In this document: one piece after another, positions 32,201-53,446 of the stretch
How positions within the stretch are numbered: the first letter of the stretch is position 1
Layout: each line of letters begins with the position of its first letter
Assembly (NCBI RefSeq): GCF_964355755.1
Contig: NC_092674.1
Coordinates: forward strand, 3,601,001-3,665,000
Reading direction: 5' to 3'
From: Antedon mediterranea
Lineage: Eukaryota; Echinodermata; Crinoidea; Comatulida; Antedonidae
Length of the DNA stretch: 64,000 nt
Program-made: the position numbers and the translations under genes
Notes under the pieces: generated by a model
What the model was told of the DNA's origin: nothing
The model's input: the letters and a program-made list of their open reading frames with translations, nothing else
The model's database searches: none

Positions 32201-33004
32201 ATCTTGTCGTTACGACAAAAAGTCCTCCATCTGGTTAACCAGATGTTGGTCTTCCTTTCTGACAAATCGTCGTTGTCTAGTCAGCGTCCGCCAAATCCAC
32301 CATCACTCGCTTAGCAATTTATCGTACTCGTAGATCTCGCGGATTTCATGGAATTTTTTAAGCATGTTTATAATTTACTGTACTTTAGGGGTTTCGAGTT
32401 GTTACCGGAAAAGAGTGTTGGCATAAGTCTCTAGAACCATTGATGGTGGAAGTGCGAGAAATGATGGGCGATGGACCAGTCTATCTCAGCTTTGATATTG
32501 ATTCTCTAGACCCGTCTATTGCTCCGGGAACTGGTAAGTAGAAATCTAACACATGACGCTGAGCTCCGGAGATCAAAGGTTTATTTGTGGCTGCGACACG
32601 ATCCCTTAACACACAGTGTGCCGCGGAGAGTATGTACACATAGTAGACCTAACAGTACTTTTGATATTTGTCGCAGCCAGACATAAGACCAAAGGACTGT
32701 TGCATTAATTTTATTAACAAATTATTGTTGGTTTATCAAAAGTAGCATATATTCTTTATTGTCTCTGAAGCTTTCTAATAAACAAAAAATGTATTTATTT
32801 ACAGGTACACCTGAAATTGCTGGATTAAATATAATACAAGCATTAGAGATAATCCGAGGATTAAAGGGACTTAATCTGGTTGGTTGTGATTTAGTCGAGG
32901 TTTCACCACCTTACGATCCTCTTGGTACAACCGCTCTGATCGCTGCTAATCTTCTCTTTGAGATGTTGTGTGTTCTACCTGGTGTCAAGTACTATGATGT
33001 CTAA
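29232..33004 (+). CDS. AGMAT: Agmatinase-like ureohydrolase, copy B, mitochondrial
   Basis: Agmatinases of the arginase family hydrolyse agmatine to putrescine and urea. Seven exons join in phase: 29232-29355, 29845-29991, 30171-30296, 30822-31006, 31765-31965, 32389-32533 and 32805-33004, giving 375 residues, close to the usual animal length. Exon 1 (MFKGGLVCASVSTRCFSRF...) is rich in Arg, Ser and Ala with few acids, as expected of a mitochondrial presequence. Metal-ligand motifs: GGDH (180-183), HIDAHND (D206, H208, D210) and SFDIDSLDP (D297, D299), then SIAPGTGTPE. Substrate specificity cannot be read from sequence; guanidinobutyrase or another guanidino substrate is possible. It is the divergent partner of copy A. 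Introns 3 and 4 carry MITEs and a minisatellite. Confidence 0.92.
30362..30552. repeat. MITE family 1 copy in agmatinase B intron 3
   Basis: Starts AAAGCTTGATTCCCACTAG and ends near GTTGGAACCGAGCTTAA, with AACGCAAGGACGTAACGCAA inside. It is more diverged than the copies at 9,714 and 35,675. Confidence 0.7.
30651..30784. repeat. MITE family 2 copy in agmatinase B intron 3
   Basis: Contains AAAGCTCTATATACTATCAA, TGTGCCCATATATGGACATG, and ends GTGTAGAAAGAGCTTTA. This is a diverged member of the AAGCTCTGTCTACACTATC inverted-repeat family that is abundant in the SBNO introns. Confidence 0.65.
31071..31309. repeat. MITE family 1 copy in agmatinase B intron 4
   Basis: Begins GGCTGGTTCCCACTAGAACG and ends CTAGTGGGAACCAAGCTTTA. 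The interior is longer and diverged from other copies. Confidence 0.65.
31335..31650. repeat. Minisatellite of about 15 bp in agmatinase B intron 4
   Basis: About twenty imperfect units built on ATGCGTTTACGTTTGTG, alternating TTTGTG, TTCGTG and TTCGTA endings. It directly follows the MITE at 31,071-31,309. Confidence 0.85.
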
Positions 33005-34309
33005 GTACAACACTAAGACCGGTCAGAGATTTTTAAAAGACTTTAGGTTAACTATTGAACAACTCTCCGTATTAGGCCTACCAGTATCCGGCAAAATATG
33101 TCTATAGGCGTATGTAGAATTTGGTTTAGCAAGAAATGTAGTATTATTACTTACATATTCCCTGACATAACTAGGCCTACTCGTTATTTACAGGGCCGCC
33201 GGGAGAATCGAAGTGCGAAAATTGACAATAATTCGTCATCGTTTCTTATAAGGGAAAAAATGTTATTGCAATTAAAGTATAATCACAAACAACAACCAAT
33301 ATTACTCATTTTATTTCATCTTATTAATAGAGGGTGACCCTAAACAGCGTATGCCGACAATCTTGATGAGTTATGATAAGTGTCTGTGTGTGTGACAGTG
33401 GCTGTGTGTATACTAGAGTACACACCGGGCTAACCCAATTGATAATCGTATAACTCCCTATTTAAACTACAAAATAAATAATGTACTAAATCAGCACTGC
33501 TGACTCTTATGGCAGCCCCTGCATCTAGTATCTGCCTCATACGTATTGGCTTATGACTTTCCTCTGGTCAAGGTGGGCACTGGACGAGAGAAGCCCTGAT
33601 CAATGTTAGGACCAATCAAGGTGCTTTAAAATAGTCCTGGCTTTGTTGTTAGTGTTAGTGGCGGTAATTATCGCTGTTGGTTTCGATTGAATAAAATAAA
33701 AAAAATAAATAAAATAAAAAGTAATTTATTTTGGAAGGTCATTCCAAAGAATAGCAGCTGACCAGGAAAGGCGCGTTGTCCATATTGGCCTCAGTAAAAC
33801 CTCTGAAGATGACCTCAGTCAGTGTGGCTTGTATGAAGAAATAATGTCGGATAGAAATGTTGGAGCCATGTTATGAAGTGATTTAACTGTGATGAGGAAA
33901 ATCTTGTACATTACTCTTTTTTCAACTGGCAACCACCAATGTAGCTGTTCCAATACCGGTGTTATGTTGTGACATCATTGGCGTAACTGCTATGGGCGCT
34001 CACTGGTTAAACCCAGGGGCCCCGGATGTCCAGCGGAAAAAACAGGCATTGTCGAAAAGACTAAAAACACCCGAGACCTCCAGCGTTGAAGGGCCACTTG
34101 GGTTTCTAAGCTAGGGGCCTCAGACCTCTGTGTTACGCCACTGTGTGACATACTGGGAGGATGCGAAGAACCAGACGGGAATAAAGACAATAAATAATCA
34201 TGCTAGCTATTACGCCACCAACGTTTGAGGGCTAATCGATATCGATCTTTGATAATCGAATTACTAGAGTATTGGACACACAGATAGGCCCACTACAAAT
34301 AGTCTTACA
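33005..34309. other. Spacer between agmatinase B and the HNMT-like gene
   Basis: Contains the 3' flank of agmatinase B, an A/T-rich tail (AATAAAATAAAAAAAATAAA near 33,690) that looks like the end of a dispersed repeat, and a MITE family 4 copy at 33,972-34,147. The last 160 bases should include the HNMT-like promoter; no TATA box is obvious. Confidence 0.5.
33972..34147. repeat. MITE family 4 copy
   Basis: Starts TTGGCGTAACTGCTATGGGC and ends GTGTTACGCCACTGTG, a terminal inverted repeat around GGCGTAAC. It shares the TATGGGCG.TCACTGG stretch with the copy at 6,061-6,207. Confidence 0.6.
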
Positions 34310-36430
34310 ATGGCGACAACCATTCGTTCCATTTCAGAGGATTCGGAATATTATGCAAAAAGTTTTAAGATTATAAAACCACAGTTGACAAGGATTCAAG
34401 CAGATCTAGATAAAATATTTGAAAAAACAATTCCGAAAAAAGTAATCGTCCGAGAGAGAGGTCTTAAAGTTCTCGGAATCGGAAGTGGATCCGGTAAGAT
34501 TCTTACATTTTTTAAATCAAATTTCAGAATTATTAAATCATTTTGTGAGTATTTGTTACCAAAGGATTGCTAGAAAAAATACTAAATTGTTGGACTTCAA
34601 ACACCACAAAGTGATCACCGCGTCGACTGGAAACCAGGCTTAAGTGGTTTTGGGATAACAAAAAACTAACATCGTTCTCGCGTACAACGCTGTTGTTATT
34701 AAGTACTTATTTTAGCTTAAAGAAATGTTCATTTAGATTATTATTTGGGCGTATTTAACGCCTTTTTCCAATATTGTTTTGATCAAATATCTTTCCGGAC
34801 TTTATTTTAACCTAGTTAAACAATCCTTTTGTTTGTATATTTGACAGGCTTGCCACCTTTGGAACGGTGGCACTCACAAACTGTGTTAAAAAAACACAAA
34901 AACAATCAAAAAATTATCTCTGAATCTTTCACACCAAAGTCATTCCCCGTCCGTTTTCGGTTTTTGATGTTGATGGCCTACTGTAACCCTCTAAATAACA
35001 TTCCGCTATGACGTCATTCGTGGGATTCGAAAAAAATATTTACCTGAAAAAACTGTAATTTAAAGCAAAAATGGACCAGCCACCGGGTTTTTGGTTGAAT
35101 TTAACCATGTATTATGTTATTTCATAGGTGAAAATATTGTTTCCTTTCGTTTTTTTCTATGGAATTGATTAACCTTATTAAAACTACAAAATAACCTATT
35201 CTAACTTTTTATGTTTTTGGTGGACAATGCATCTTTAAAACTTTCTTTAAAGGTGAACTCGAGTTAAAACATACACTACAGCTTTTACGCACCTTTCCAC
35301 AAATATCACTGACGTCGATAGAGCCTGTACCAGATCACCTAGACGAATACAAACAGTTAGTAGCCAAAGAAGCCGACACGTTGAAGAGCGTCACCTATGA
35401 CTGGAGACAACAAACTTTGGACCAATACCGACACGAGGTTGGCGCCTCTAAGAAATATGACGTCATCGTATCCATCAATAGCGTGTATTACTTCGATGAC
35501 GTAGAAGATTCGATGATATACCTACGTGATATTTTAGAAGATGATGGAATTCTTATAATTGTTCTCGTATCAGGTAATTACTAATTATTTTACAAGATTT
35601 TCTCACTAATTAAGGGTGTGTGGCGCAGTGAGATCGAGGTTCGAATCCAACTCTCGCCGCATTGTTAGTATCCTTAAAGCTTGGTTCCCACTAGCGACGC
35701 AACACAAGGACGTAACGCAACGCAAGTGAATTGACCAATCACAAGCGATGGCTTATTCGCTTGTGATTGCTAACCGTCTATAACTTCGCTTATCATTGGT
35801 TAAAACGCTTGCGTTGCGTTTACGTCCTTGCGTTACGTTCTAGTGGGAACCAAGCTTAAACAAGATACTTTACTTACGTTTGCCTATCTCCACCCTGGTA
35901 TATAAATGGGTACCCGGTTAGATCAAGACACAACTTTGCGCTGATTACTAGCTGCATTTGGGAGATGTTTCTATACGTGTTTGATGCAAACAATTACCGG
36001 GGTAATAATGTTCAGCGCTTAGAAGTTTCACAACACTATTTTGCTCAATTAATTTCATTATTTTATAGAAAATGGTATGACATACAGGCTATGGGATCGT
36101 TTTCCTCATTTGTATGACGCGTCTCACTTCCATCGTATTTGCTCACTTCATCTACTCGACGTATTACAAAAGTGTAACATTAAATACGACAGTGAGCGCA
36201 TACGCAGTGACGTTGACCTCACGGAATGTTTTATAGAGGGCTCAGAAGATGGGCAATATTTACTCGATTTTGTGAGTCACGTGATTGACCTGCGTGGTAG
36301 TACATCGCCGGAATGTTATTCAGAATTTGTGTCTTTCTTGAAAGAGTCTACCCGAAAAGATTCTACGGAAGAAAATGGTGTACGATGGGTGTTCGTTACC
36401 GAGCAAGAAGTACTATATATACACAAGTAA
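34310..36430 (+). CDS. HNMT: Histamine N-methyltransferase-like SAM-dependent methyltransferase
   Basis: Three exons join in phase: 34310-34493, 35253-35573 and 36069-36430, giving 288 residues, almost the length of vertebrate HNMT (292). HNMT transfers a methyl group from S-adenosylmethionine to the imidazole of histamine in the cytosol. Seen here: N-terminal MATTIRSISEDSEYYAKSFK, aligning with the HNMT start; the SAM-binding loop VLGIGSGSGE (54-63); IEPVPDHLDEYKQLVAKEA after the second strand; INSVYYFDDV in the motif region; and the C-terminal FIEGSEDGQYLLDF stretch. Some positions that I recall contacting histamine in the human enzyme appear changed (for example IQMLYY is INSVYY here), so the substrate may be another small amine. 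Intron 1 carries a MITE family 3 copy; intron 2 carries a SINE with a MITE inserted in it. Confidence 0.88.
35025..35240. repeat. MITE family 3 copy in HNMT-like intron 1
   Basis: Shares CTGTAATTTAAAGC, TTTTTGGTTGAATTTAACCA and the right end TTTTTGGTGGACAATGCATC with the copies at 8,276 and 36,915. The left terminus is degraded. Confidence 0.6.
35610..36055 (+). repeat. SINE family B copy interrupted by a MITE family 1 element
   Basis: tRNA-derived: GTGTGGCGCAGTGAGATC, then a B-box GAGGTTCGAATCC. A family 1 MITE (35,675-35,859) follows, and then the SINE body resumes with TAAATGGGTACCCGGTTAGA, ACTTTGCGCTGATTACTAGC and GGGGTAATAATGTTCAGCGC. The uninterrupted copy at 56,190-56,445 gives the same order without the MITE. 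Confidence 0.75.
35675..35859. repeat. MITE family 1 copy nested in a SINE
   Basis: Begins AAAGCTTGGTTCCCACTAGC and ends CTAGTGGGAACCAAGCTTAA. The interior matches the reverse complement of the copy at 54,985-55,169 closely. The host SINE sequence on either side defines its ends. Confidence 0.85.
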
Positions 36431-36504
36431 CCCAGCATATCACGTAAGAGGTTGAGGTATGTCGTGCCATACAGTCATATCTATACGGTGCGCCTTAACT
36501 ATAG

Positions 36505-36722
36505 GCTACGGTGCGTTTTAACTATACGGCGTGTCGTGACTATACGACGTGTCGTAAATATACGGCGTGTCGTAACTATACGGCGTGTCGTAACTATACG
36601 GCGTGTCGTAACCATACGGCGTGTCGTGACCATACGGCGTGTCGTGACTATACGGCGTGTCGTAAATTTACGGCGTGTTGTAAATTTACGGCGTGTCGTG
36701 ACTATACGGCGTGTCATAATTA
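36505..36722. repeat. 18-bp minisatellite between two convergent genes
   Basis: About twelve near-identical units of ACTATACGGCGTGTCGTA. Because 18 is a multiple of three, open frames run through it on both strands, but these have no splice or family support. It lies just past the HNMT-like stop codon at 36,430. Confidence 0.95.
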
Positions 36723-36914
36723 AACTTCAGCTGGAATGGTAAAACAAATAAAAAACGCTCGAAAATAAAAACCAATAACTAAATGAGACTAGAGAGTATG
36801 TCTCTGTAATGGCTATCAAAAATGTTTAAAAAACGATGCAAAAACCAGTTATGTAAAAAAGTATTAATTTAATAAAAGGCTACCATACTATATTAAAAGT
36901 TATATTTGATACAT

Positions 36915-37182
36915 TAAAGATATATTGCCTCCCTGAAAGAATAATTTTTTTTAAATCGACTAAAAAAATAGTTGAGTTGAAAAAACTGTAATTTAAAGAA
37001 AAAACAGTCAAATTGGCTGCCAGCCGATGGATTTTTGGTTGAATTTACTGTTTATTTTGTGATTTTATAAGTAAAAAAAGCATAACTGTTTTGGGTTTTT
37101 TTCTACAGAACTTTGTTAAAACTACAAAATATGATTTTATTCATTTTCATGTTTTTGGGGACAATATACAGTATCTTTAACA
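36915..37182. repeat. MITE family 3 copy at the 3' end of the SBNO gene
   Basis: Left end AAAGATATATTGCCTCCCTG, interior CTGTAATTTAAAG and TTTTTGGTTGAATTTA, right end TTTTTGGGGACAATATACAG. It ends about 70 bases from the SBNO stop codon. Together with the minisatellite it fills the 36,431-37,249 spacer between the convergent HNMT-like and SBNO genes. Confidence 0.7.
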
Positions 37183-37249
37183 AAGCAGCATTTGCATGAT
37201 ATAATTCAATATTATCAGTTTTCAAGGTTTTAAAACAATCTTCTGAACA

Positions 37250-40200
37250 TCAAGTGAGGCAGTTATCAATATGTTTATTTATATCAGCGTTACTTGTTCC
37301 TGTACCAAAAACTTTTTCGCACATCGGGCAAGTAATTTTGCTTTCGGTTTGTTTATTAAAACTGCCTTGTATACTCATCTGTTTCGGCTTCTTCGTTGGT
37401 TGAGATTTCATCCCCGTTTCGTTCGGTAAAGGACGTTTTTGCCGTATGGTCGGTAGACTAACACTGCTTGAGCTATCAGCACTTGCGCTACACAATAAAG
37501 CCTCTGTTCCTTTACCTGACTCAATTTCTTTTACACCATTTACAATCGTCTCTTTGGTTACGGCACCAGTAAGTGGCTTAAAGAAATTCTTAATTGTCAT
37601 GGGTGGTGTCATAGCTTTACTTAAATATTTAGCATCGACTGGAGATACAGGCTCTTCTGTTAAAACTAATATGGATGACGGATTGCTGGATGCTTGCACA
37701 ACACAACCACTTTTATCACTCACCTAAAACACAAAATTAAAACAAATTCTAACCTGCATCATCGCATATTTGATTTGTAATGAGCTTTGATTATACACAA
37801 TAAATGATATTGCATTTCTTTCTTGAAAATTTTAAAAAAGCTAATTATCGACAAATTAAAAAACTTTCAGAGATTTTACAATGATATTCTTTACAGAAAA
37901 CATTTTTAAGATCTGTCTACACTATCAAACTACAGTAGTTTGACGAAAAGTGTAATGTGCCCAAATATGGTAGTGATATACCCATACATGGTAGTTTTAT
38001 GACATCATCATGTTCATATATGGGCACATCACACTTCTTTTTGTCACATAAAGTTTGATAGTGTAGAAAGAGCTGAAGAATATAAAACATTTTTTTTTAT
38101 TCTTGTTTAAAGAGATTTCAATGTATAATAGAAAAATAGCCCTTGTTTTTCGATATCTATGTTGTGGCCATTCTAGAAGAACACAAAGTCAAATATGTAC
38201 ATTTATTTAATTTGAGAAAAAATTAAAATATAATTACATCATACTTCTTACCAGTTGTAGTTGTTCCAAGTGTTTTTGCTCAGAAATTGCCGCTTTTGCG
38301 ACATCCATCAGAATCGCCGGATACCGCATTCCTACTAGTTTCTTGCCGTTATCCAGCTTAACACGTACTACACGGAGATTACATTGCGCTTTACTGCAAC
38401 AAATTAAAACTTTCTAAAACCAAATTCCCAAAACCGCCAAGGAAAATGCAAGGGAAAAATAAACACCCAGAGAAACGGCCTAACTAATTACAGTTTTTAT
38501 GTTTCAGTTTTTCAATGTATGTAATTAAATTATTAGCCTATAAATAATTATAATCATTATTAGTACATACACATAAACTATGAGAAGTAATCAATTTGAT
38601 TTATCACATTAATCAACACAAACACACCCTTCAGTAAAATTAATTCCACATTTTTCGAAATTCAAAACCGACATTGAGACAAATAAATCAATACCCTATG
38701 CATCAATCTGTTATTACTTGATAATATCAATTATAATAATAAATATCTATAAAGGGTAATTACATCAAACATAACTTTTCTGTATAAACCAATGTCAAAC
38801 AGATATATAAATAAAAATAAAATGTACATTAGTAGTAGGCTTACTTTAATACTAGTGACATGATAATATTAATTATAAAATATAAGGTTATTACACCAAA
38901 AATTAACTTTTTTGTTTAAACAGATGTTAAAACTGCACAAATATTATAAATGAATATACAATTCACACTCAAAACGTCAAAATATTTTCAAATCTTACCT
39001 CAGTTGCAATCTGCTAGCATGTGAAGTAACAGTATTCTCTAACGTTGACATATGTGTTAATATACCACCGCACAATAGATCCATTCTGTAGCAACGAGAG
39101 CCAACTAAGAGAAAAACATTTTTTCGATGAGCAGTAACGGTAATAAAAATATAGAATCTGTTATATCTTTATGACCATTTAGACACAGCGTGGAGCGAAC
39201 GGGCGGTTTCCACTCAGGATAGATACAGATTTTAAGTAGGACAAGTTAGGCGGTTTTTCGCTTAGTGTATGTTTAAATTGGCCTTTAGAGGATGAAATTG
39301 ATAGGAAAGGTAAAACTTCTCCTCAAATAATGAAAATAAAGTGGCCAATAAGTAGCTTACCCATACAAGAGTCACCATGTTTACAATGCGGGCCATGGAC
39401 ACAATGATCTTTGAAACATTCATACAACAAATTCCAACCAACCTCTGAAAAAGATTCAAAAATACTACTTAACAAAAACAGATTTTATTTACTATCATAT
39501 GTGAACAAAATTTTGATTTTCTTAAGCTCTGTCTACACTATCAAACTTGATGTGACAAAAAAATGTGATGTGCCCATATATGGAAACGATGATGTTATAT
39601 CACTACCATAATTGGGCACATCACAGTTTGTTTTTTCTAACTAGTTTGAGAGTGTAGACAGAGCTTTAAACTCTTTTGCACTTATTTTAACACTTAGTAT
39701 GTTACAATGGTTTCCTGGGGACATGGACCTAAATTGGTATCATTGGCGTTATTACAGAAACAAAATGTTCTAAAGGCATACTTAAGGGGTGGCTTAAATG
39801 TTTTGAGTCAATTGGCTCAAGGAACTTTAGGTTTAGAATACCAAAAAAAAGTGTATAGGTCGGTAGTTTAGATAACTTACCAGCTTTTTCTTTGGTAACT
39901 TTGTAATACTTAGTAAATAGTTCAGTCTTTTCTTCATCGAATCCAGACACACCAGTATTGGGCCTAAGAAATATAAAACAATACAAAATCATAGTACAAA
40001 TTCTTTTTTTTGTGTCAAAACTTTTAATCTTTTTTCTACTTTTTATCAGAGAATTGTGTTGTAAGTGCTTTTTTCTGTTGGTGCAATCTTCTGTGTATTT
40101 TTATTGTTATATACAGTATATATATGATGATATTCCAGTTTTTCAAAACAAATTTCTGTTAATCCTTTTTAATGGACAAATAAAGATACTATGACTATGA

Positions 40201-43200
40201 CTTCTAAACTGACCTGGCAATTTTAAACAGATGCGTAGAGTTCAGTTTCTGCGTGGCTAACAAATACATGAACTGGCCATGAGGATTTCTACGACGTGAA
40301 CAGTAAAACCCGTCATTGTCACCGCTATGGTTTTCAAGACGTTCCTGAGCTCTTTCCCAACTCATACCACGATCAACTCTTAATTTATAATGCCTGACAG
40401 AAAAAATATAAATAAATATCCTTTCATTTTAATTAATGTGCCCTCAACACAAATGCTGAAAAATTTATTTCATTTATTTGTTTAAAAAAAAACGAAAAAA
40501 GAGTGCACGTGTGTAAAATTAACCTGGTGAAAATTCATAAATACAGGTTGATTCTTTTAAGACATCATCAGCTTGCCATACTTACATAGTCTTAATGTTG
40601 GTCTGAGCAGATTTAAATACTTCTGTTGGTTCTTCTACCATCTGAATGGAAGGAGCAATGATGTCCACCAAACCTTCATTATACCTATATATAATATAAT
40701 AAAAAATTAATAGATTTTTATAAAATCTGGAAAAGTATATTATTTTCTATAAAAATAAACACTTGAAACAAGTTATGGGCTAGAAAACAGTCTACAGTTA
40801 ACTAGCCTGGTGAGTAGGTAAGAGAAAACAAAAAAATGTTACCTGCCCTCCTTCTTAGCGGCAGCAATGACTGCTTGAAGACTTTCCGAGAAATAGCGAA
40901 ATATTAGGTTCTGCATATCAACAGCCAAGCCCAATATTCTGTTTAGAAATTTACCAACATCGCCAGTATCTTTGTCATTGACTTTGGTGGCAAGTGATGT
41001 TGTATCGAGCAGGGCCATCAGATCAAGACATTCCTATGAACAAAAATCAACAAATTAAGCTTTAACATTATGTTGTGATAGTACTGTATACAGTAATATA
41101 CAAAAATACTACATATGGTGTCCCCTTAAGGCCAATTTACACAGACGAGGGGTAACAGTAATAAAAATATAGAATCTATATGTTATTCCTTATGACCATT
41201 TAAACACAACGCGGAGCGGACGGGTGGTTTCCGCTCCGGATAGATACAGATTCTACGTGGAACAAGCTACGCGGTTTTCTTCTTACCTTTACCGCTCATT
41301 TGTGTAAATTGGTCTTTCAAAGGTTCTACTGTATAAAATATAGTATACTTACAGTATAGAATGGAGTACAGATTAGCATACGAATAGCTTGGCTTGAATT
41401 AGCTAAACATTGCCAATGAAGAACATACAAGAAAGAGAACGTGTTACTTACCATCATTTGTGCATTAAATTCGGAGAATACCATCTTTTCATTTTTCATA
41501 ATGTTATCTAAGGAGACCCCATTGGCGATGTGATTCTGAAAAAAAAGGTAATACAGTAGTATAATAATCATAATCACAATCCTCGTGTCACTATAACTAA
41601 TAGTTATTAGTGCTCAATCACACATCACTATAATACCCCTTTCACAAAAAACTCACCTGGGCTCCCACAATACAAAACGCAGGTGTTGAATGAGTGAAAG
41701 TGGTATAACATTAAAATAAAATCACTATCATGATCATCGTTATCATAAACTTGATTTAAATAAATGCCAGATGTGCCTACAGGGCTACTGGAACAACATT
41801 AAATCCTATAATCTATAGTCTTAAGCTCTGTCTACACTATTAAACTAGTTTGACAAAAACAGTGTGATGTGCCTAAATATGGACATCATCATGTCCATAT
41901 AAAGGCACATCACATTTTTTCACACATAAAGTTTGATAGTGTAGACAGAGCTTATCACACTTTAACCAGCCCATATCTTCACCATTTATCAATAGAACAA
42001 ATTAATAAAAAGAAGCTTACATTACATATTGCAAAATACATGTTCCTAAGTGCAGCACGGCCATATTGTGTGTCAAAGTTGAACTTGCTAAGGTCAGCTC
42101 CAGAGGCCGCTCTTCGGTCACCTTTAGTTAGAGCCCCTAGCGACTCTAAACGCTTAGCGACTGCAGAAGCAAATCTTCGTTCACCACCGAGGTTTGTCGT
42201 GATAAGTTTATACAACGGACCACTAAAGTTTGATAAATATATATATTATTTGTTTAGATGACATTATGTTTCTTTGAACCAAATAAATATTATTTATAGA
42301 ATAGAGCCTCTATTAAGGGGACACCTTTAGGACCCAACAAATTATCCCCTTAATAGAAGTGTCCACTGAACAGGAGTTGACTGTAGTGTTAAAACATATA
42401 CTGTCATCCTTTGAATCACAAGAAAGTTTCTGAAGAGGACTATCCAACGTCTGATAGCCTAAAGCTCTGTCTACACTATCAAACTAGTTTGACAAAAAAA
42501 GTGTGAGGTGCCTAAATATGGTAGTAATATAACCATATATGGGCACATAACATTTTTTTTGTCACCTAAAGTTTGATGGTGTAGACAGAGCTTTACCTGC
42601 TTTGATTGGCTCTGTGTGAACGTCCCATTTGCTGTACGGCTTTATCAGCTGACCAGGGTAGCTCCATTGTAATGTGAACTCGTTTACACTGATTCGCTAC
42701 TCTCTTATCAGCATGTAAAGATATTCCTGCAAAAAAGTACAATCCCTTTATTATAAAATGGCAATTTAGCAACATGACACCGAGCTCGACTTGCCAAGAT
42801 AGGCTATCACAGTCTTTGATTGTTTCAAAGCTAGAGGTAAACCCTTTGATCTGGATGAGCTCATCGTCCTGTTGTTAGATTGCCTTTATTATAATACACC
42901 AAACATTTAACTGCAATAACAATAATGACAATAAAGATATTTATCAAATTCAATTAAATATGGACTGACCAGTACTAGCAGCATCTGATATGATAGCTAT
43001 CAATTTGGTTCCATTCATAAAACTATTTCTCTGAAACAAGATGAAAACAAGGTTTAATCTTGTATATCGAATAATTAATCTCTGTTTACACCATCGAATT
43101 TTATGCGACAAAAAAATGTGATGTGCCCATATATGGACACGACGACATCATATCACTACAGACTAAAAAATTGTAATACGAACCTCCTGTACATTAAGGC

Positions 43201-46200
43201 TTTCGAGCTGACTTGTGTCACCTGACCTAGTCTCGTACTTGAACCCATCCTTACCGTGAACGACACGACCTTTCCTACCAGTCATCTCGGCCACTTTGCT
43301 CGGACCACCAAACTTGTCAATGATCTCATCTAAGGGACTATAACAAATAAATGTTATCCTCAATAAATTATTTTCTTTGAGATTATTTTAGATTGATCGA
43401 TTGTAATATTTCATAGTTCTACACAAACCTGTTTGGTAAACCAATTTTGCCAGCAAAACTGATTAGAAGCTCTTTGGCTGTATTACTCCATTCGTCTGTC
43501 CGTACCTCACACTTCTGAGGTGTCTGAAACAAAGAAATAATATTTACATTTGTTGTCACATAAAGTTTGATAGTGTAGACAGAGCTTTAAAAATGACTTT
43601 ATGGGAGTGGTGTTGTTTTTTGTCATTAGAAAAAAAATCCTGACATGGGAATCGGTAGCATAACATTTTAAACATGAAGCTAAAACTTCCCTTAATATGA
43701 CAAAACTCATTAACCATATCCAAATAAAATAAAAACTGCGATATACTGAATGTATTAAAACTAAAGTATCTATTATTTATTTGAGTTATTAGGAAATATT
43801 ATTGTAATGATGTTTTGTAATTAAAGAGAAAAAAGCGGACAAACTAATTGTTTATTTAACTTACTGATAAGTTGATATCTGTCGGAAAATATTCAGAAAC
43901 AAAGTGTACAAAGATTTCCTTAGCAGTTGAGACAAAGTCTGTGAGTTGAGAATCTTTTCTTTGGAGTTCACTGTCTAGACTTGCCTACAAAGAGCAACAT
44001 GTAGTTACGTAATCAATATAATGGTTATTTACAATGTTCAGGATCAGAGAAAACAAAAATGATGAGAGAGACAAAAGTTGAGACTCACAAATAATAATTT
44101 TTGGGTGGGGGGGGGGGGGAAGTACACATTTATCTAACTTATGTATTAATTAATACAGAACGAACAATGGCTAGACAGGTAAGTGACTGGAGGAGATTAG
44201 AAGAGCATAATTTAGCATACTCCAGATGGAAAAAAGTTTAATGATGAAGTTGGCAATCAAAACACTAACCTCGCCAGTTGTTTGAAGACCAATCACAACG
44301 CAGCAACCACTTTCCAGAGCTGCTTTTGTTTCTTTTACAATAGTTGGCACTTTGACACCCATACTGTGAAAACAGATTTAATGAAGGTACTTACTTCAGG
44401 CTATATAACAATGATTTGGGAATACAGTATATCCCCTATTAAGGGGATACCTTCAAGATAGGGATGTTTCTTGAATAGGGGTTGATGCCTTAAATAGAAA
44501 AGTGGTCCCTTTAGGGGTGTCTCTTAGATAGGGGTTGAAGCCTTTTATGGGAAAGTGACGCCTTTCATGGGAAAGTAGTCCTCTTAGGGGTGTCCCAGAG
44601 TCGGTCGAGATTGTACTATATTAGGATTCCTGATGTGTATAGTCATCCATATTTCAAACTCAATTCATTACCAGATTTGCTTAAAGAACCGTTGGTGAGC
44701 TGACCAAAATAAGGACCATATCTTGGAGTTGCCGGTGTTGGTTCTCTCCAATGCTGATTGTAGAGATCTTCTTAATTCATTCCTACAAAAACAAGCGGAA
44801 TAATGACTTAGTATACAAAAAAAAATTAGAACGATAAACATTCATTTTGTCACAAATCAACAACAAATGCTTTCAAAAGTACATATCATTATCAACTACA
44901 AACTATCACATGAATGGTGACCCCTGTTTGTCATGATTTCATTTCCATGACTTTTGGGATCGCCTGAGGAACCTCCTGGTAATTGTTCTATATATGAGAA
45001 TTGAGAATAACATATTTAAAAAAATACTAAATCAACAGATAATTTGTAATACTTGTAACTTAAACACATGATTCTCAGTGCTTGTTTTATATTTTTAAAT
45101 AACATTTCATCATAATACTTTATATATTTAAGATGACTTGGTTTATATTTTAATGTCATATTTATTTTTTGTAATGTGAATTTATTTTAATATTGTAAAT
45201 TCAACAATGCATTGAATTTGAATTAGTATCCTACCATATATGAACCGAAGTGTTGTACATCTTAACTTGTTCATCAGTAAGTTCACACTCTACCGTACTA
45301 AACTCAGCCTGTTTAAAACTAAGTCCTCTCGACACATACTTTCCAGACGTCTTCATTTCCATTGCTAATAACTCGGCAATACCTTTGGAAAAAAGTTTCA
45401 AAATCTATCAATAAATATTATTATCAATATTATGTACATTAGAATACTTCAGTAGAACTAGCTATTTTATAAAAGTTTTATTTTGTTTGATGTTTTTCCT
45501 AATATATTTGAATAAAATCAAACAAAATTTGCACAATATCTGCATTCTAAAAAAAAACCAGTTTTAATTTTTTTTAATGATTTTCCTAATAAATTAAAAT
45601 CAAATTAAAATCAATCTGCATTCTAACTCAAAAAAACACAAATGATTATTTGATAGCTTACCAAGACCTCGTCTATTGATAGCGTCATTGAATTGTGCAA
45701 ATGTTTTAAAAGCTGTACCGTCTCCCCACATGCCAAGCCGCTCCATGAAAGCCTGTAAAAATACAACAACTGGTTTAGTTAAAATAACTGTATACAGTAA
45801 TATCCTGTGGGGATGTCCATGGTGTTAAAACGTATATTTTCTCTTGTTCATATCTCAGGAGAGTGTCCTCTTAATAGAGGTGTCCCTGAATAGGGGTGTT
45901 CCAAAAGAAGGGTTTTTATTTTAATGTATAATATCACATTATATAATATGAAAGAAGATTTTTTTCTAGGTTTCCGACTATAGGAAAATTATTATTATTA
46001 AGAGATGGAACAATTCTGTCCTTCTATAACACTGACAATGCATTTTAAGGGTAGCCATACCATGTTTTTGACATCACTGACACCTGTTGCGCTACAGTAT
46101 ACGACACGTGCCTTTGGCAGTAACCTACAAAACATTAAAATAAATGAACATTAAGTGTACGACAAATCTTTCAAAGGTCTTTTATAAATTTAATACATTT

Positions 46201-49200
46201 TAATTTGATCAATAAAAATAAAATAAATACCTTTGTATTGAGGCTACTGCTAGTGCAACTTTGGTAGAATTCTTTTCGTTTCCCTAACAAAACAAAGAAA
46301 AAGCAGAAATATAATTACAAATATAATATAAGACTAAATATGATAAAATTTAGAATCAGACGGTAAGAAAACTTACAGGAATGAAATGTTTCGCTTTATG
46401 GCATTCATCAAATATTAAACAGCCATCAAATGAGTCTTTTCCACCGCACCATTTAATTAACTGATCTAAACGAGACTGTTTGTTGCTATTAAATGCTCCT
46501 AAATAAAAAAAGAAAAAAATAATTTCTTTAATATTTCTTTATGTTTCATCAACAGCATAAACAGGCCCGTAGCCAGGGGGGTTTTTATGGTTCGGGCGAA
46601 CCCCCCCTTTACAGCGAACCCCCCTTAACCGACTGCGAACCCCCATCCCCGACATGCCCAATACCTCACCCTCATCTCCAAAAATCCTCCAAATACGTGC
46701 CCCACAGTACAAAAAGTTGTTTGTAAATTGAAAAATTCGTAAACTTGTTCGTGAACCTTCTTCTCTGTATGAGCGTCAACTAGCGATACGTGTCTAAATT
46801 TCTAAAAGCTGCAAATGAATTGCCGATTTTAACCTGAAAAATAAATGTTTGGTCCCTGCATCTAACATGATATTGACGTGTCTCATAGCGAGCTGGGACA
46901 CGAACGATTCATACAAAGGACACCGCCAGACAACTGCGTACTTATAATTGTTTAGATCACTGGCAGTCAGGCAGCATGCATAAAGTATATAGCCTTCCGA
47001 CGTACATCAGTATTTATGTGTGACTATGAAGTATAATGTATCATAGAGGATTATAGTGAATATTAATATTTTACACTATAATATCTATGGTATCAAGTAC
47101 TGTACACATTATGGCATCTGATTATTTTTTTCTAGACCACCAGCCGATACGTACTAAAATGTATCAATATCACCTATTTACATATTTATATTCCTCAACA
47201 ATTGCTGTAAATAAATATTATAGATAGAGCTGGGTCATTCCATGTCAAATCACCCAATGGGTTAAACCCTACTTTCTTCAAATTTGCTCAAATTTGGTTT
47301 TTGGGTTAATTTTAGCTAAAAAACCTGAAATTTTTAATTTGAGCGCTGTACGACCAACGGTTCGCGCGCTACGCGCCGTCGTTTCTTCGCGATTTTGCGC
47401 AAAATCGACGAGGCGGGCTATACTTAAATGACCGTATCTCCGTAACGTGTGGACCGATTTTGTTGTGACCGGTATCTTTGGAAAGCTAATTGTTAAAGCT
47501 ATCCAAATCTTCTATTTACTTTTGAGATAGAACTATTTAAAAGATGTATAACTTATTCTATTCCATTTGACCTTGTGGGACAAATTTTTTTTAGATGAAA
47601 TTTTGTGAAAATTATCTCCTACATGATATTTACATAATATAAAAAAATTGGAGATATATTATTTTTTGTTTGCTTTCTAGCTCATTTCAAAGTTGGCTTA
47701 CTTCAACAATTCTGGTATTTCTATACAGTGAAGATGTATTGTCGACATTATATCACTACCAAATTTACCTCTTAATACTATCAGGGAGTTGTTATTATTC
47801 TAATAACAACTCCCTGCATACTATGGGTGTCACTGTCAGATTATTTATAAGACTAACAATGCTTTAATTATATTTTCATGCTCCATACAAAACAATTTAA
47901 CTCAATATAACTGCATGATTTATAGGGCTATAATTACGTAAAATTGTAGTAACGTTTTAAAATTGCATACAACGGCAGCTAGGCGGCATGAACCGGGGCA
48001 AGTGGTATTTTTATGCAATGACTACTACTACTTGCCCCAACCAATGTATCGTCACCCCGGTCCATGCCGTTTATAACGTAATTATAGACTTATAAATCAT
48101 GAGGTTATGTTGCATTTTTTATAAGAACGTAAAATTGTAGAATGTTTTAAAATTGCATATAATAATAATAATATTTATTCGGCAAAAGTTCATAAAGTAC
48201 AAATGGCAGCTAGACGGCATGGACCGGGGCAAGTGGTATTTTTCTGAAATGAGTGGACCCTACTTGCCCTAACCCATGTATCATCACCCCGGTCCATGCC
48301 GTTTATAATGTAATTATAGCCCTATATATCATGCATTTATATTGCATTTTTTACAAAAACGTAAAATTGTAGTAACGTTTTAAAATTGCATAAAATGGCA
48401 GCTAGACGGCATGGACCGGGGCAAGTGGTATTTTTCTGAAATGAGTGGACCCTAATTGCCCTAACCCATGTATCATCACCCCGGTCCATGCTGTTTATAA
48501 TGTAATTATAGCCCTATATATCATGCATTTATATTGCATTTTTTATTAAAAAAATTTAAATTGTAGTAACGTTTTAAAATTGCATAAAATGGCAGCTAGA
48601 CGGCATGGACCGGGCCAATTGGTATTTTTATGCATTGACTACTACTACTTGCCCCAACCAATGTATCGTCACCCCGGTCCATGCCGTTTATAACATAATT
48701 ATAGTCTTATAAATCATGTGGTTATATTGCATTTTTTACAAAAACGTAAAATTGTAGTAACGTTTTAAAATTGCATAAAATGGCAGCTAGACGGCATGGA
48801 CCAGGGCAAGTGGTATTTTTATGCAATGACTGGACCCTACTTGCCCCAACCCATGTATCGTCACCCCGGTCCATGCCGTTTTATAACGTAATTATAGCCC
48901 TATAAATTTATGCAGTTATATTGCATTTTTTATAAAAACGTTAAAATTGTAGTAATGTTTTAAAATTGCATAAAATGGCAGCTAGACGGCATGGACCGGG
49001 GCAAGTGGTATTTTCACTTGAAATGACTGGACCCTACTTGCCCCAACCCACGTATCGTCACCCCTGTCCATGCCGTTTATAACGTAATTATAGCCTAATT
49101 ATGAGTGAAGAAATAAGTGAACAAAATACAATGAACAAAAATGTAAAATAATGATGAACAGCAAAGAACAATCAATGTTTTCAAAGTTATCATCAAACAA

Positions 49201-52200
49201 AAAAAAATGATTCAATTTGCTTGAAAGTGTGAAAAGAGTGCCATAAACTGATGGTACATCCTTGGCTAACCAGTCAAATGGTGTCCAGATGTTTACCTAA
49301 GTAATAATTATTTTGTATGGAGCATGAAAATATAATTAAAGCATTGTTATAGTCTTAAATAATCTGACAGTGACACCCATAGTATTAAGAGGTAAATTTG
49401 GTAGTGATATAATGTCGACAATACATCTACACTGTATAGAAATACCAGAATTGTTGAAGTAAGCCAATTTTGAAATGAGCTAGAAAGCAAACAAAAAATA
49501 ATATATCTCCAATTTTTTTATATTATGTAAATATCATGTAGGAGATAATTTTCACAAAATTTCATCTAAAAAAAATTTGTCCCACAAGGTCAAATCCTAG
49601 GTCAAATGGAATAGAATAAGTTATACATCTTTTAAATAGTTCTATCTCAAAAGTAAATAGAAGATTTGGATAGCTTTAACAATTAGCTTTCCAAAGATAC
49701 ATGTCACCACAAAATCGGTCCACACGTTACCGAGATACGGTCATTTAAGTATAGCCCACCGCGTCGATTTTGCGCAAAATCGCGAAGAAACGATGGCGCG
49801 TAGCGCGCGAACCGTTGGTCGCATGGCGCTCAAATTAAAAATTTCAGTTTTTTTAGCTAAATAAAAATAACCCCAAAACCAAATTTGAGCAAATTTGAAG
49901 AAAGTAGGGTTTAAAATGTCATTTTTTTTGGGTGATTTGGTATGGAATGACCCAGCTAGCAAATAGCATTTGCCTTCACCCAGTGTGCTTTTTTCGGGGC
50001 TGCTCCTAGATGTACGTTCGCATTGAACTTGAACGCAAAACAAAATACGGAGTAAATGATCAAACAATCGGCGGTTTCGCACAGACCACGTGCATCTAAC
50101 ATACGGCAACAAATAGTTATCGTCCTTTAAATTATCGACGTGTTTGAGGAGGAGGAAAAAAGTATGATCTTTTTGCTCATTGGTAACATGCTGCACGAGA
50201 GTGTCTTTTCCGGCCATCTAGAGGTGTCATTTAACAAAATTCGCTTCGCATCAGGCCCCAGCCCAGGGGGGGGGGGGGGTTGACCCAAATATTTAGTGTC
50301 CGAACCCCACCTTGACAGATCCTGGCTACGGCCCTGATAAACCAAGCAAATTTGTTACAAAATATCATATATGTCAAAAATCTTTTACAATATATTATTT
50401 GTATTGGTGCTGCAGTGACCATGCTTTCCCAATCCCAAGGTCCATGGTTGATTAAATCTCAACTGTCTCAAATAAGCCCTTATTTATACTTTATTATCCA
50501 CAACTTTGTATGTATAGTCGTACAAGACCAAACATGTCTTTTTATGTAAATTTCCCAGGATAGCTACCGTTGAATTCATTCCCTATCCTTCTTAAAGGTG
50601 GCAAACATATACAAAAGATGTTCTACAAAAAACAAAGTCCTATTGGGAGTGAAAGTCACAAAAACAAAATCCAATTTGAGCAATTTGCACATTCTGACCT
50701 CCTTTCTGGACAGATGACACTAACGTTGCATATGTACTGAATATCACGCCTTCCTTAAAGTCAGATGGTAAACCAAACACTCTGAAATAAGGACAGTAAA
50801 AATGGCAAATAAGAAAATGAAAAGAGACTAAAATCGAGCAAAACTAATAAGATGATGATAATGATGAAGATTAAAAATATGAATTAATGATGAAAGAATA
50901 TATACAGTACCTTGTTTCCTTGTCAAGCTGTTTACATCCCTCAATAACTTTAATGTAACAACTTAGATCACTCAGATCTCTGAAATGGCATAAATAATAA
51001 AAATAAGAATACTGCATACGCAAGTATTAAAAATTGTTCAGCTTTCATGACATATTTAAGATCCTAACTCCAACTAAAATAAAATTCCTTGACTATTGGA
51101 CAAAATATTAAATACAAAAATGTTGAGAGCAGTATATAGACCTCTGTGCATCTACTTTTAGATCAGATGAAATGCTAAACCAAATGTGCCTTGTGCGACC
51201 TCGAATATAGTTGTCCAAAATGATTCCAGCAATCTGAAATAAATTCATTTTTATATTTACTTATTTGTAAAATCTAAAATGATGCAGAAAAATTGTAACA
51301 TTGATTGATTTTACAATATATAACCTATAAAGCTCTGTCTACACTATCAAACTAGTTTGACAAAAAGTGTGATGTGCCCAAATATAGTGGTGATATTACA
51401 TCATCATGTCCATATATAGGCACATCACTTTTTTTTTGTCACATAAAGTTTGACAGTGTAGACATAGCTTTACTGTACACTCTTCATCTCAACGTAAATA
51501 ATTATGTGCAGAACAAATTCATGGCATCTGATTGGTCAATAGTATGTCTATATTTTGAACCATGACCCTCAATCCGGTCAATATTTTGTATACTATTCCT
51601 TACCTGTCGTCCCTTTCCTACCCCTGCAGCATCACCAATAAAGAACCCTGCTCTGCACCCAGATGAAAGCACCGTTTGGTGCTTCTGACACTAAAAAAAA
51701 TAAATACTTATTACAATACTTACTTAAGCTCTGTGTACACGATCAAACTAGTTATAATGTCATCGTGTCCATATATGGGCACATCACATTTTAGTCACAT
51801 AAAGTTTGATAGTGTAGACAGCACTTACGAGAGTGTTAGAATTTAGTCACAACTTTTATATTCCGTAAGTGTTTATTTAGTAACACTCTATCAGGCCTGA
51901 CTCTATCACACAATCTTTATTCTCACTCGAGTAGGTTTTACACAACTCACAGCATATAGAATACCCTGTAACTGCAGGTTGCTCAATTTTCCTGATTTCA
52001 CTAGTTCTTCTGGTAAAGAGTCTTGGAGGTTATAGGTCGGAGGTGGTAAAGCAAGGTCCTACAAAAAAAAACACATTTTTTTTTATGCGAAAAATGTTCT
52101 TCGTAGTGCATAATAAAGAACTACTACACTATTTTAAAGAGTAGGTGGTCGTTTCCCCTCTCCCCTGTTAATCTGGGTAGAGGATGAACTGTTGCCGTAG

Positions 52201-53446
52201 ACGGCCCAATCCTAATCAATTTTTAATAATTTAAATTTAATGTTTAGTTATCATCAATTGGTAACACAAGAATTACTTAGTATACATACTTTTTCTGATT
52301 TAAAGACCCATTAACACTAGAACGATAACGATCGGCGATAAATAGATAAACATACATTTTTCTTGCATAAAACAAAAGAAATTAGAACATTTTTTGTTCT
52401 AGAACTATAGGATAATCATTTATGCTGTCTTTGATAAAATGATTTTTTTTTTAAATCCAATCGAATGACGTCATGATCAATAAAAACAATGAAATTATTG
52501 TATTGTCACGATATTATTACTCTTACATGTGAAAATATCGTTTTAGTATCCTAAAGATGAAAACTTTTTAAATTTCCTTTGTTTCAGGTATGAAAAATGC
52601 ATATTTATCGTCGACCGTTACAGGCCAAGTGTAAATGGGCCTTTACTGTACGCTTAACATTTATAGATTTAACAATAAAAAAGTACTTACTGCTAAAGAC
52701 GCTGCCTCTACTATAGCTCCAGGGTGTGGTTTAGCTTCTGGAATAATTGCTGATGGCTCGTATTTTGCGAAGACTTCTTCACTGAAATCAATCGATGGAA
52801 AATAAAAATAATGGAAAAATCAGGGACCAAACTGCACTATGTACTATAGTATGCTGTTAACAATGAGAACAATTTTTCAAATGTAAAACAGTGTGTTATA
52901 ATATTCCCCTTGTGGGCTTATACCGAATATATCTCATCAACAGAATGTGTACAATTTTAACTTTATGCTTGTTATACCAAGGCAATCTAACAACAAGATG
53001 CTGAACTCTGGCGATCAAAGGGTTAATCTGTTACACAGACAAGATCAGTTAAATGTTGTCTCTAACAGACAACATGCCGCAAAGAATATGTACATAGTAC
53101 AGTACTGTTGGTATTTGTCGCAGCCAGACATAAGATCAAAGGACTGTTATATGAGTTCCTATCTTGTTGGCAATATTGTGGTTGTTAGATTATACCTCAT
53201 CATTTCTTCAGCAGTTGAAGTTCTTTCTGGGTCGTCAATATTAGCAACTTGATTTAAAATTGCATTTGGAATGGTGCTACCAGGAATAACGCCTGGAGCC
53301 ATTGTCCCATATTGCATTAAGCCAGGTTTCACACCATTTGCCATTCCGTGTGCTGTTGTTCCCGGTTTCATGTTGTCAGATGTCATTCCATGCATCCTCA
53401 TTCCGTGTTGAGTTCCATTTGCCGCTTCATATTTTGTTTGATTCAT
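37250..53446 (-). CDS. SBNO: Strawberry notch (SBNO) family helicase-like protein with C-terminal UBZ4 finger
   Basis: Twenty-nine minus-strand exons join in phase to 1,222 residues: 53446-53196, 52781-52691, 52058-51951, 51690-51604, 51233-51142, 50979-50911, 50781-50699, 46498-46377, 46283-46231, 46124-46061, 45752-45662, 45382-45235, 44782-44672, 44363-44270, 43984-43865, 43523-43429, 43337-43184, 43030-42970, 42726-42597, 42222-42021, 41535-41452, 41033-40843, 40684-40586, 40393-40214, 39963-39881, 39444-39361, 39104-38999, 38393-38252, 37723-37250. SBNO proteins are nuclear SF2 helicase-like regulators. Motifs: GDAAGVGKG (about 169), DECH (291-294), SATG (330), [15 protein letters not shown] (about 570) and [15 protein letters not shown] (about 653). 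The N-terminus before the helicase is short (about 90 residues, Gly/Met-rich). Unusually, the last exon holds a PIP-like MTIKNFFKP and a UBZ4 finger [15 protein letters not shown] 5'-UTR intron may end at TTTTTCAG just before the ATG. Confidence 0.92.
37905..38075. repeat. MITE family 2 copy in SBNO intron 28
   Basis: Runs from GATCTGTCTACACTATCAAA through ATGTGCCCAAATATGG and CATATATGGGCACATCACAC to GTTTGATAGTGTAGAAAGAG, a self-complementary element. Confidence 0.75.
39524..39668. repeat. MITE family 2 copy in SBNO intron 25
   Basis: Left end AAGCTCTGTCTACACTATCA, right end GAGTGTAGACAGAGCTTTA; TGTGCCCATATATGG inside. One of the best-preserved copies. Confidence 0.85.
41821..41953. repeat. 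MITE family 2 copy in SBNO intron 20
   Basis: Left end AAGCTCTGTCTACACTATTA, right end TTTGATAGTGTAGACAGAGC; hairpin-forming interior with GACATCATCATGTCC. Confidence 0.85.
42305..42385. repeat. Short degenerate repeat, GAAGTGTCC word family
   Basis: Contains CTCTATTAAGGGGACACC and CCCCTTAATAGAAGTGTCC, mirrored words. Related stretches occur at about 9,545-9,712, 44,428-44,605, 45,795-45,915 and 62,765-62,812. Confidence 0.55.
42461..42593. repeat. MITE family 2 copy in SBNO intron 19
   Basis: Left end AAAGCTCTGTCTACACTATC, right end TTTGATGGTGTAGACAGAGC. It directly abuts the donor end of exon 42726-42597. Confidence 0.85.
43079..43161. repeat. MITE family 2 fragment in SBNO intron 17
   Basis: Left half only: CTCTGTTTACACCATCGAAT, then GTGATGTGCCCATATATGGA. 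A separate right-end fragment lies at 43,551-43,591 (CATAAAGTTTGATAGTGTAG) in intron 15. Confidence 0.6.
44428..44605. repeat. Degenerate GGGGTGTCC repeat cluster in SBNO intron 13
   Basis: Repeated words CTATTAAGGGGATACCTTCA, AATAGGGGTTGA and CCTTTAGGGGTGTCTCTTAG in tandem with variable spacing. It belongs to the same short-word family as 42,305-42,385. Confidence 0.55.
47228..49965. mobile_element. Long-TIR (about 660 bp) fold-back element with tandem core
   Basis: The left arm (about 47,228-47,900) begins AGCTGGGTCATTCCATGTCA. The right arm (about 49,305-49,965) ends GGAATGACCCAGCT. Mirrored landmarks include TTCAAATTTGCTCAAATTTG, GGAGATATATTATTTTTTGT and CATGCTCCATACAAAA. The left arm has one extra hairpin (GGGAGTTGTTATTATTCTAA and its partner, about 47,785-47,815). 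The core between the arms is a tandem array. No open frame of note. Confidence 0.85.
47940..49110. repeat. Six tandem units of about 193 bp with internal palindrome
   Basis: The landmark GACGGCATGGACCGGGGCAA recurs at about 47,983 (variant), 48,213, 48,405, 48,599, 48,790 and 48,985, spacing 191-195 after the first unit (230, with a short insertion). Each unit also has CACCCCGGTCCATGCCGT about 80 bases on, the reverse complement of the landmark, so every unit can fold into a hairpin. TTTTAAAATTGCATAAAATG joins the units. Confidence 0.9.
51331..51472. repeat. MITE family 2 copy in SBNO intron 4
   Basis: Left end AAAGCTCTGTCTACACTATC, right end AAGTTTGACAGTGTAGACAT; TGTGATGTGCCCAAATAT inside. 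Confidence 0.8.
51724..51829. repeat. Short MITE family 2 copy in SBNO intron 3
   Basis: Left end TTAAGCTCTGTGTACACGAT, right end GTTTGATAGTGTAGACAGCA, with a deleted interior. Confidence 0.75.

Follow-up and report, generated by a model that had tools for sequence, protein, structure and literature searches.

The window, i.e., the whole 64,000-nucleotide stretch of Antedon mediterranea DNA analysed here, contains on its minus strand a long gene of the strawberry notch (SBNO) type, the last exon of which encodes a C-terminal tail with a candidate UBZ-type zinc finger and two PIP-like motifs. The features of the locus are as follows, with the basis of each assignment in brackets.

37250..53446, minus strand: whole SBNO-type coding region (hand-built splice model, 29 exons, 1222 aa)
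45235..52781, minus strand: exons 2–12 with the AAA_34 domain, residues 102–415 (PF13872, 410 bits, profile positions 1–306 of 306)
40586..43337, minus strand: exons 17–23 with the Helicase_C_4 domain, residues 561–841 (PF13871, 356 bits, profile positions 2–271 of 271)
38999..40393, minus strand: exons 24–27 with the SBNO alpha/beta domain, residues 877–986 (PF25373, 80 bits)
38252..38393, minus strand: exon 28, end of the part common to sister gene B, with the donor GTAAGA (splice model)
37250..37723, minus strand: exon 29, 157-aa tail, residues 1066–1222 (phase-0 junction, codon usage)
37568..37603, minus strand: first PIP-like motif, residues 1106–1117, non-canonical, with a Pol eta-like flank (comparison with Pol eta PIP2)
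37358..37381, minus strand: second PIP-like motif QMSIQGSF, residues 1180–1187 (translation)
37259..37330, minus strand: candidate UBZ-type finger CPMC-x15-H-IDN-C, residues 1197–1220 (Pfam, PDB sequence search, fold model)
37136..37141, minus strand: poly(A) signal AATAAA, 3' of the stop codon (sequence)

In the manually built splice model all 28 introns are of the GT...AG type and the joined reading frame is free of internal stops. The initiating ATG is located directly 3' of an acceptor-like CAG, so a 5' non-coding exon upstream of it is likely. AAA_34, Helicase_C_4, and the SBNO alpha/beta domain were found in one protein, all far above the Pfam cut-off, and the membership in the SBNO family proposed in the preliminary description is supported by these three family domains. 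The translation of the AAA_34 region includes the Walker A motif GVGKGR, the DECH box, and the SAT motif, and the predicted ATPase motifs are intact, namely, GVGKGR, DECH, and the motif VI arginines in QQMGRSHR.

The last exon was previously claimed to continue the SBNO frame, and this holds in the splice model: exon 29 follows exon 28 (end at 38252) in phase 0 and adds 157 aa and a stop codon. When the codon score was trained on exons 1–28, the tail obtained a log-odds of 0.184 per codon in its own frame versus at most 0.062 in the other five frames, and none of the 348 overlapping intron samples taken as background reached the score of the tail (maximum 0.053). It is very improbable that the exon at 37723–37250 is part of another gene which was wrongly joined to the SBNO model. 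In favour of such an error, translation past the donor of exon 28 would likewise terminate early, as an in-frame TAA follows five codons; however, the exon 28/29 junction is GT...AG and in phase 0, the first ATG of the tail frame appears only at tail residue 38, the AATAAA signal follows the stop codon of the tail, and the neighbouring open frames at 30000–37249 all lie on the opposite strand, with no minus-strand open frame of at least 80 codons in this interval. Five other open frames (four on the plus strand at 30683–36430 and one inside intron 7) were scanned with Pfam, where two matched the arginase family, one matched a methyltransferase family under the cut-off, and two matched nothing.

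The tail finger possesses all four zinc ligands (C-x2-C ... H-x3-C) together with the helix aspartate (H-x-D). It was initially designated as a canonical RAD18-type UBZ4, and this designation holds for the UBZ ligands and for the helix INKHIDNCL, which resembles RAD18 and Pol kappa with the H-x-D aspartate included, but not for the spacing C-x2-C-x15-H-x3-C, since the central gap is x11 in RAD18, x14 in Pol kappa, and x15 in FAAP20. The FAAP20 UBZ with its identical spacing is also the best match in both PDB sequence and Foldseek searches, while it lacks the H-x-D aspartate present in the window finger. The pattern C..C.{8,18}H.D.C occurred at a rate of 0.0001 when the tail was shuffled 20,000 times.

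Profile scores of the finger depend on the scope of the scan. For PF18112 (Zn-C2H2_12) the full-length protein gave 20.3 bits at residues 1196–1218, which is under the cut-off of 23.2, and the tail scanned alone gave 23.5 bits, while in the six-frame search of the 354-Mb genome (18 contigs), which scores the best candidates only, the finger was second among the 7 matches listed with 25.7 bits (E 0.0097), above the cut-off and with no stop codon inside. In 14 control prokaryote genomes the same profile found weak matches in 3, none of them above the cut-off. For PF15750 the tail scan resulted in 21.6 bits, under the cut-off of 25, and in the genome scan the finger was second among the 5 matches listed with 26.5 bits (E 0.003), exceeding the cut-off solely through read-through of the gene's own stop codon.

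When the last 59 residues were compared with PDB sequences, 14 distinct sequences were found at E<=10, with FAAP20 (E 0.011), Pol kappa (0.016), and RAD18 (0.034) as the best matches. Nine of the 14 belong to UBZ-finger proteins, i.e., FAAP20 (two sequences), Pol kappa, RAD18 (two), WRNIP1, FAN1, which we take to be known for its UBZ finger, and TAX1BP1 (two); the remaining five are TRIM30, KREPA2, TOC75, RNF8, and B-129. The full-length protein matched FAAP20 alone, at E 0.62 and 0.65.

A model of the last 45 residues in isolation shows a helix next to short strands joined by two bridges, in line with the bba fold of solved UBZs, with a mean pLDDT of 75 and pTM of 0.43, the block pLDDT across the finger being 85–88. 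The top 17 of 94 Foldseek matches of this model were all UBZ chains, with FAAP20 as the best one (0.6–0.7 A rmsd over 26 columns), and among the best 50 of the 94 the isolated finger was most like those of FAAP20, NDP52, TAX1BP1, and RAD18, none of these 50 matches reaching E<=0.001. The WRNIP1 finger was recovered both among PDB sequence matches and by Foldseek; the Z values in VIA-align of the finger model were at most 3.5, too low to weigh. Folded as a whole without an alignment, the 157-aa tail had a mean pLDDT of 40 with no sheet in the finger, which was not confident in this model. UBZ fingers are found in autophagy receptors as well; fingers of these receptors, which are not known to be PCNA readers, are among the closest fold matches. 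According to sequence comparison and the isolated model, the C-terminal finger is a good UBZ candidate, which would be expected to bind ubiquitin.

Two PIP-like motifs are present in the tail as described earlier, both of them non-canonical and a weaker line of evidence than the finger. The stretch MTIKNFF starts at residue 1107, exactly where it was originally placed, while QMSIQGSF, assigned before to about residue 1188, in fact starts at residue 1180. The tail has no match to the canonical PIP consensus Qxx[LIM]xx[FY][FYW] (PMC5295019), and the sole canonical match in the whole protein is found at residue 811 within the Helicase_C_4 region. The second motif retains Gln and Ile with one aromatic residue only and is preceded by the basic KKPK. 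In shuffled tails [ILM]..FF occurred in 1.1% and Q..[ILM]...[FYW] in 2.5% of cases.

A likeness overlooked in the preliminary description is that the first motif is identical to human Pol eta PIP2 MQTLESFFKPLT at 7 of 12 positions, FFKPLT included; at least 7 identities were observed in 10 of 20,000 tail shuffles, the comparison having been picked after the motif was seen. As read from its sequence, the motif has the alternative first residue, the hydrophobic residue at position 4, and the aromatics at positions 7–8 of the non-canonical Pol eta-type PIP. As reported in PMC5295019, Pol eta contacts PCNA via PIPs plus UBZ, and its PIP2 peptide, though without Gln at position 1, has a value of 0.40 uM for PCNA (Table 1 therein). 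According to PMC8016126, bypass of a thymine dimer lesion in HeLa extract was lowered by a Pol eta peptide that ends like PIP2, and the effect of the Pol eta UBZ on this bypass was minimal. No PDB chain was found with a 38-aa query of the PIP region, which is not surprising given the shortness of the motif.

PCNA and Y-family polymerases are encoded in the same genome, where PCNA was represented by 3 exon matches at one place and the Y-family polymerases by 10 exon matches at four places. A UBZ-type finger with x14 spacing lies 3.5 kb past one Y-family polymerase exon, and this gene is probably Pol kappa. The FFKPLT-coding DNA pattern was also tried genome-wide as a pointer to the Pol eta tail and was rejected, as it gave 26 matches versus 25 for the reversed control, none of them near the four Y-family places.

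The AAA_34 domain had 19 exon matches in the genome at three places, 5 in the window and 7 in each of two adjacent SBNO genes, designated A and B, which are located on the same strand of contig C3 (C3:39122-80470). Over about 107 residues of the helicase core, the identity between genes A and B amounts to 81%, while the window gene is 60% identical to A and 65% to B. In an unrooted tree built with five of the eight viral loci described below, A and B form a pair (support 0.99), which is joined by the window gene (0.98); since this pairing stands apart from the window gene, the latter is not a recent copy of A or B. The window gene encodes an SF2 ATPase that represents a divergent member of the SBNO family, with the two other SBNO genes of the genome as its paralogs.

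Gene B, for which a separate splice model was built, has the stretch with KLVG in common with the window gene; in this model it reaches a stop 34 residues after KLVG and has no tail. The C-terminus of gene A was looked for on contig C3 and not found. A scan that recovers the window finger and allows overlapping matches found no finger pattern in the three minus-strand frames of C3:33001-86300; for gene A this means no pattern in the minus-strand frames of C3:33001-60800, from which an intron-split finger would escape, and no match to PF18112 or PF15750 at gene A was among the genome-wide matches listed.

Relatives of the motor were also found in viral contigs. The 744-aa motor region of the window protein gave no match in the viral contigs, and the three-row helicase-core alignment matched 18 stretches there, from which 8 loci (L015–L022) were confirmed. 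Their cores are 55–59% identical to the window gene, the first row of the alignment, in seven of the eight loci and 35% identical in one; for the five loci compared over about 107 core residues the identity is 56–59%. Seven of the eight sit within open frames of more than 2000 codons, the open frames read in all eight are free of a UBZ-type pattern, and one canonical PIP match was noted, in L020. Phage polyvalent proteins with strawberry-notch-like ATPases have already been described (PMC5512222); these are very large proteins in which the ATPase is embedded. We infer that the eight viral loci are of this polyvalent-protein type, which agrees with their large frames. In contigs of prokaryote genomes 193 pattern matches were obtained, none of which was confirmed as a relative, and this reflects the limits of the scan rather than absence, because bacteria and phages are known to contain strawberry-notch-like ATPases (PMC5512222).

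Among the cellular systems, SBNO1 and SBNO2, Drosophila Sno, and Arabidopsis FORGETTER1 have AAA_34, Helicase_C_4, and SBNO alpha/beta in common with the window protein, which differs by the additional 157-aa tail with the UBZ-type finger and PIP-like motifs. Human SBNO1 and SBNO2 are not known to carry a UBZ; invertebrate records are sometimes named FORGETTER 1-like. The tails of Y-family polymerases eta and kappa likewise combine a PIP-type motif with UBZ, where FFKPLT is as in Pol eta and the finger spacing is near that of Pol kappa, but the window protein is a helicase-like motor without a polymerase domain. Joining of an enzyme to PCNA- and/or ubiquitin-binding motifs is typical for ZRANB3 (an SNF2 protein with an NZF finger), SNM1A, SPRTN, and WRNIP1, which, however, belong to enzyme families other than SBNO. 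FGT1, as described in PMC5040591, has a PHD finger. In the literature searched, no report was found that brings strawberry notch or SBNO together with UBZ, or strawberry-notch with ubiquitin.

According to these data, the union of motor, UBZ-type finger, and PIP-like motifs in one predicted protein is an architecture well supported at the level of sequence. Such motif content makes recruitment to ubiquitinated PCNA plausible and suggests a role in DNA damage tolerance or at stalled replication forks. It can be proposed that weak docking on PCNA is provided by the Pol eta-like PIP motif, with possible help from the second one, that the UBZ finger adds affinity once PCNA or a neighbour is ubiquitinated, and that the SBNO motor would thereby be concentrated at stalled forks and gaps, where ATP-driven translocation on DNA or chromatin may remodel the fork or clear nucleosomes and proteins. 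The logic of ZRANB3 resembles this mechanism. We see an even chance that the divergent SBNO paralog works as a clamp-guided motor of this kind. The FFKPLT common to the first motif and the Pol eta PIP and the lack of a tail in gene B speak for a role in damage tolerance. The more specific suggestion that an old separate SBNO clade, retained in this lineage together with the other SBNO genes, serves specifically as a fork motor that the Pol eta-like PIP and UBZ bring to ubiquitinated PCNA is tentative and rather doubtful; if true, it would connect DNA damage tolerance directly with the SBNO family.

The main and serious rival to the clamp-guided motor is a ubiquitin-reading chromatin or transcription factor. 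Here the finger would be a true ubiquitin reader in a co-activator like the known SBNO proteins and FORGETTER1, recognizing histones modified with ubiquitin or some other protein of chromatin, and the PIP-like motifs would be incidental or would bind something else. The position of these motifs outside the canonical consensus and the presence of autophagy-receptor fingers among the closest fold matches are consistent with such a co-activator, and so is what has been published on the family: FGT1 is found at promoters and together with chromatin remodelers (PMC5040591), while in the mouse Sbno1 makes contact with RNA polymerase II, and its loss affects DNA breaks and genome stability at least partly via Yeats4 expression (PMC12289961). 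Against it stand the FFKPLT likeness to the PIP of Pol eta, a polymerase that uses PIPs and UBZ together for PCNA (PMC5295019), and the position of the window gene well apart from the C3 pair of SBNO genes in the tree. We consider the co-activator less probable than the clamp-guided motor. It is unlikely, and less probable still, that the tail is a recent and weakly constrained extension, with a structural C2HC or decayed UBZ finger and motifs that have no PCNA role. The very low confidence of the whole-tail model, which was folded without an alignment, is as for a disordered tail, the Pfam scores of the finger straddle the cut-offs, and the whole-genome search with the tail as a query revealed no second copy among the matches listed; but none of the four zinc ligands is missing, the helix aspartate is present too, the finger ranks second among the 7 PF18112 matches listed genome-wide, and the codon usage of the exon is coding-like.

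The question is of importance because SBNO proteins are, in our judgement, conserved motors with a poorly known biochemical task; they have been described as Notch and chromatin co-factors (PMC5040591). For a paralog equipped with its own motifs for ubiquitin and for the clamp, the site of action would be concrete and open to test, and the genome-stability phenotypes of SBNO would have a direct alternative to the transcriptional explanation presented in PMC12289961.

Several repeated elements were observed in and around the gene. Just downstream of it, at 36519–36719, there is a tandem repeat of an 18-bp unit in 11.2 copies with the consensus TAACTATACGGCGTGTCG. Within window positions 46400–50700, intron 7 (50698–46499) contains a large near-palindromic insert with four pairs of inverted arms of 53–263 nt, 93–99% complementary, which flank a 192-bp tandem array of 4.6 copies at 48201–49095; this insert looks like a foldback-type mobile element. 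Introns 3, 4, 15, 19, 20, 25, and 28 carry a repeated short MITE-like element, recognized by eye, with ends like GCTCTGTCTACACTATCAAACT, whose reverse complement is found nearby in several cases.
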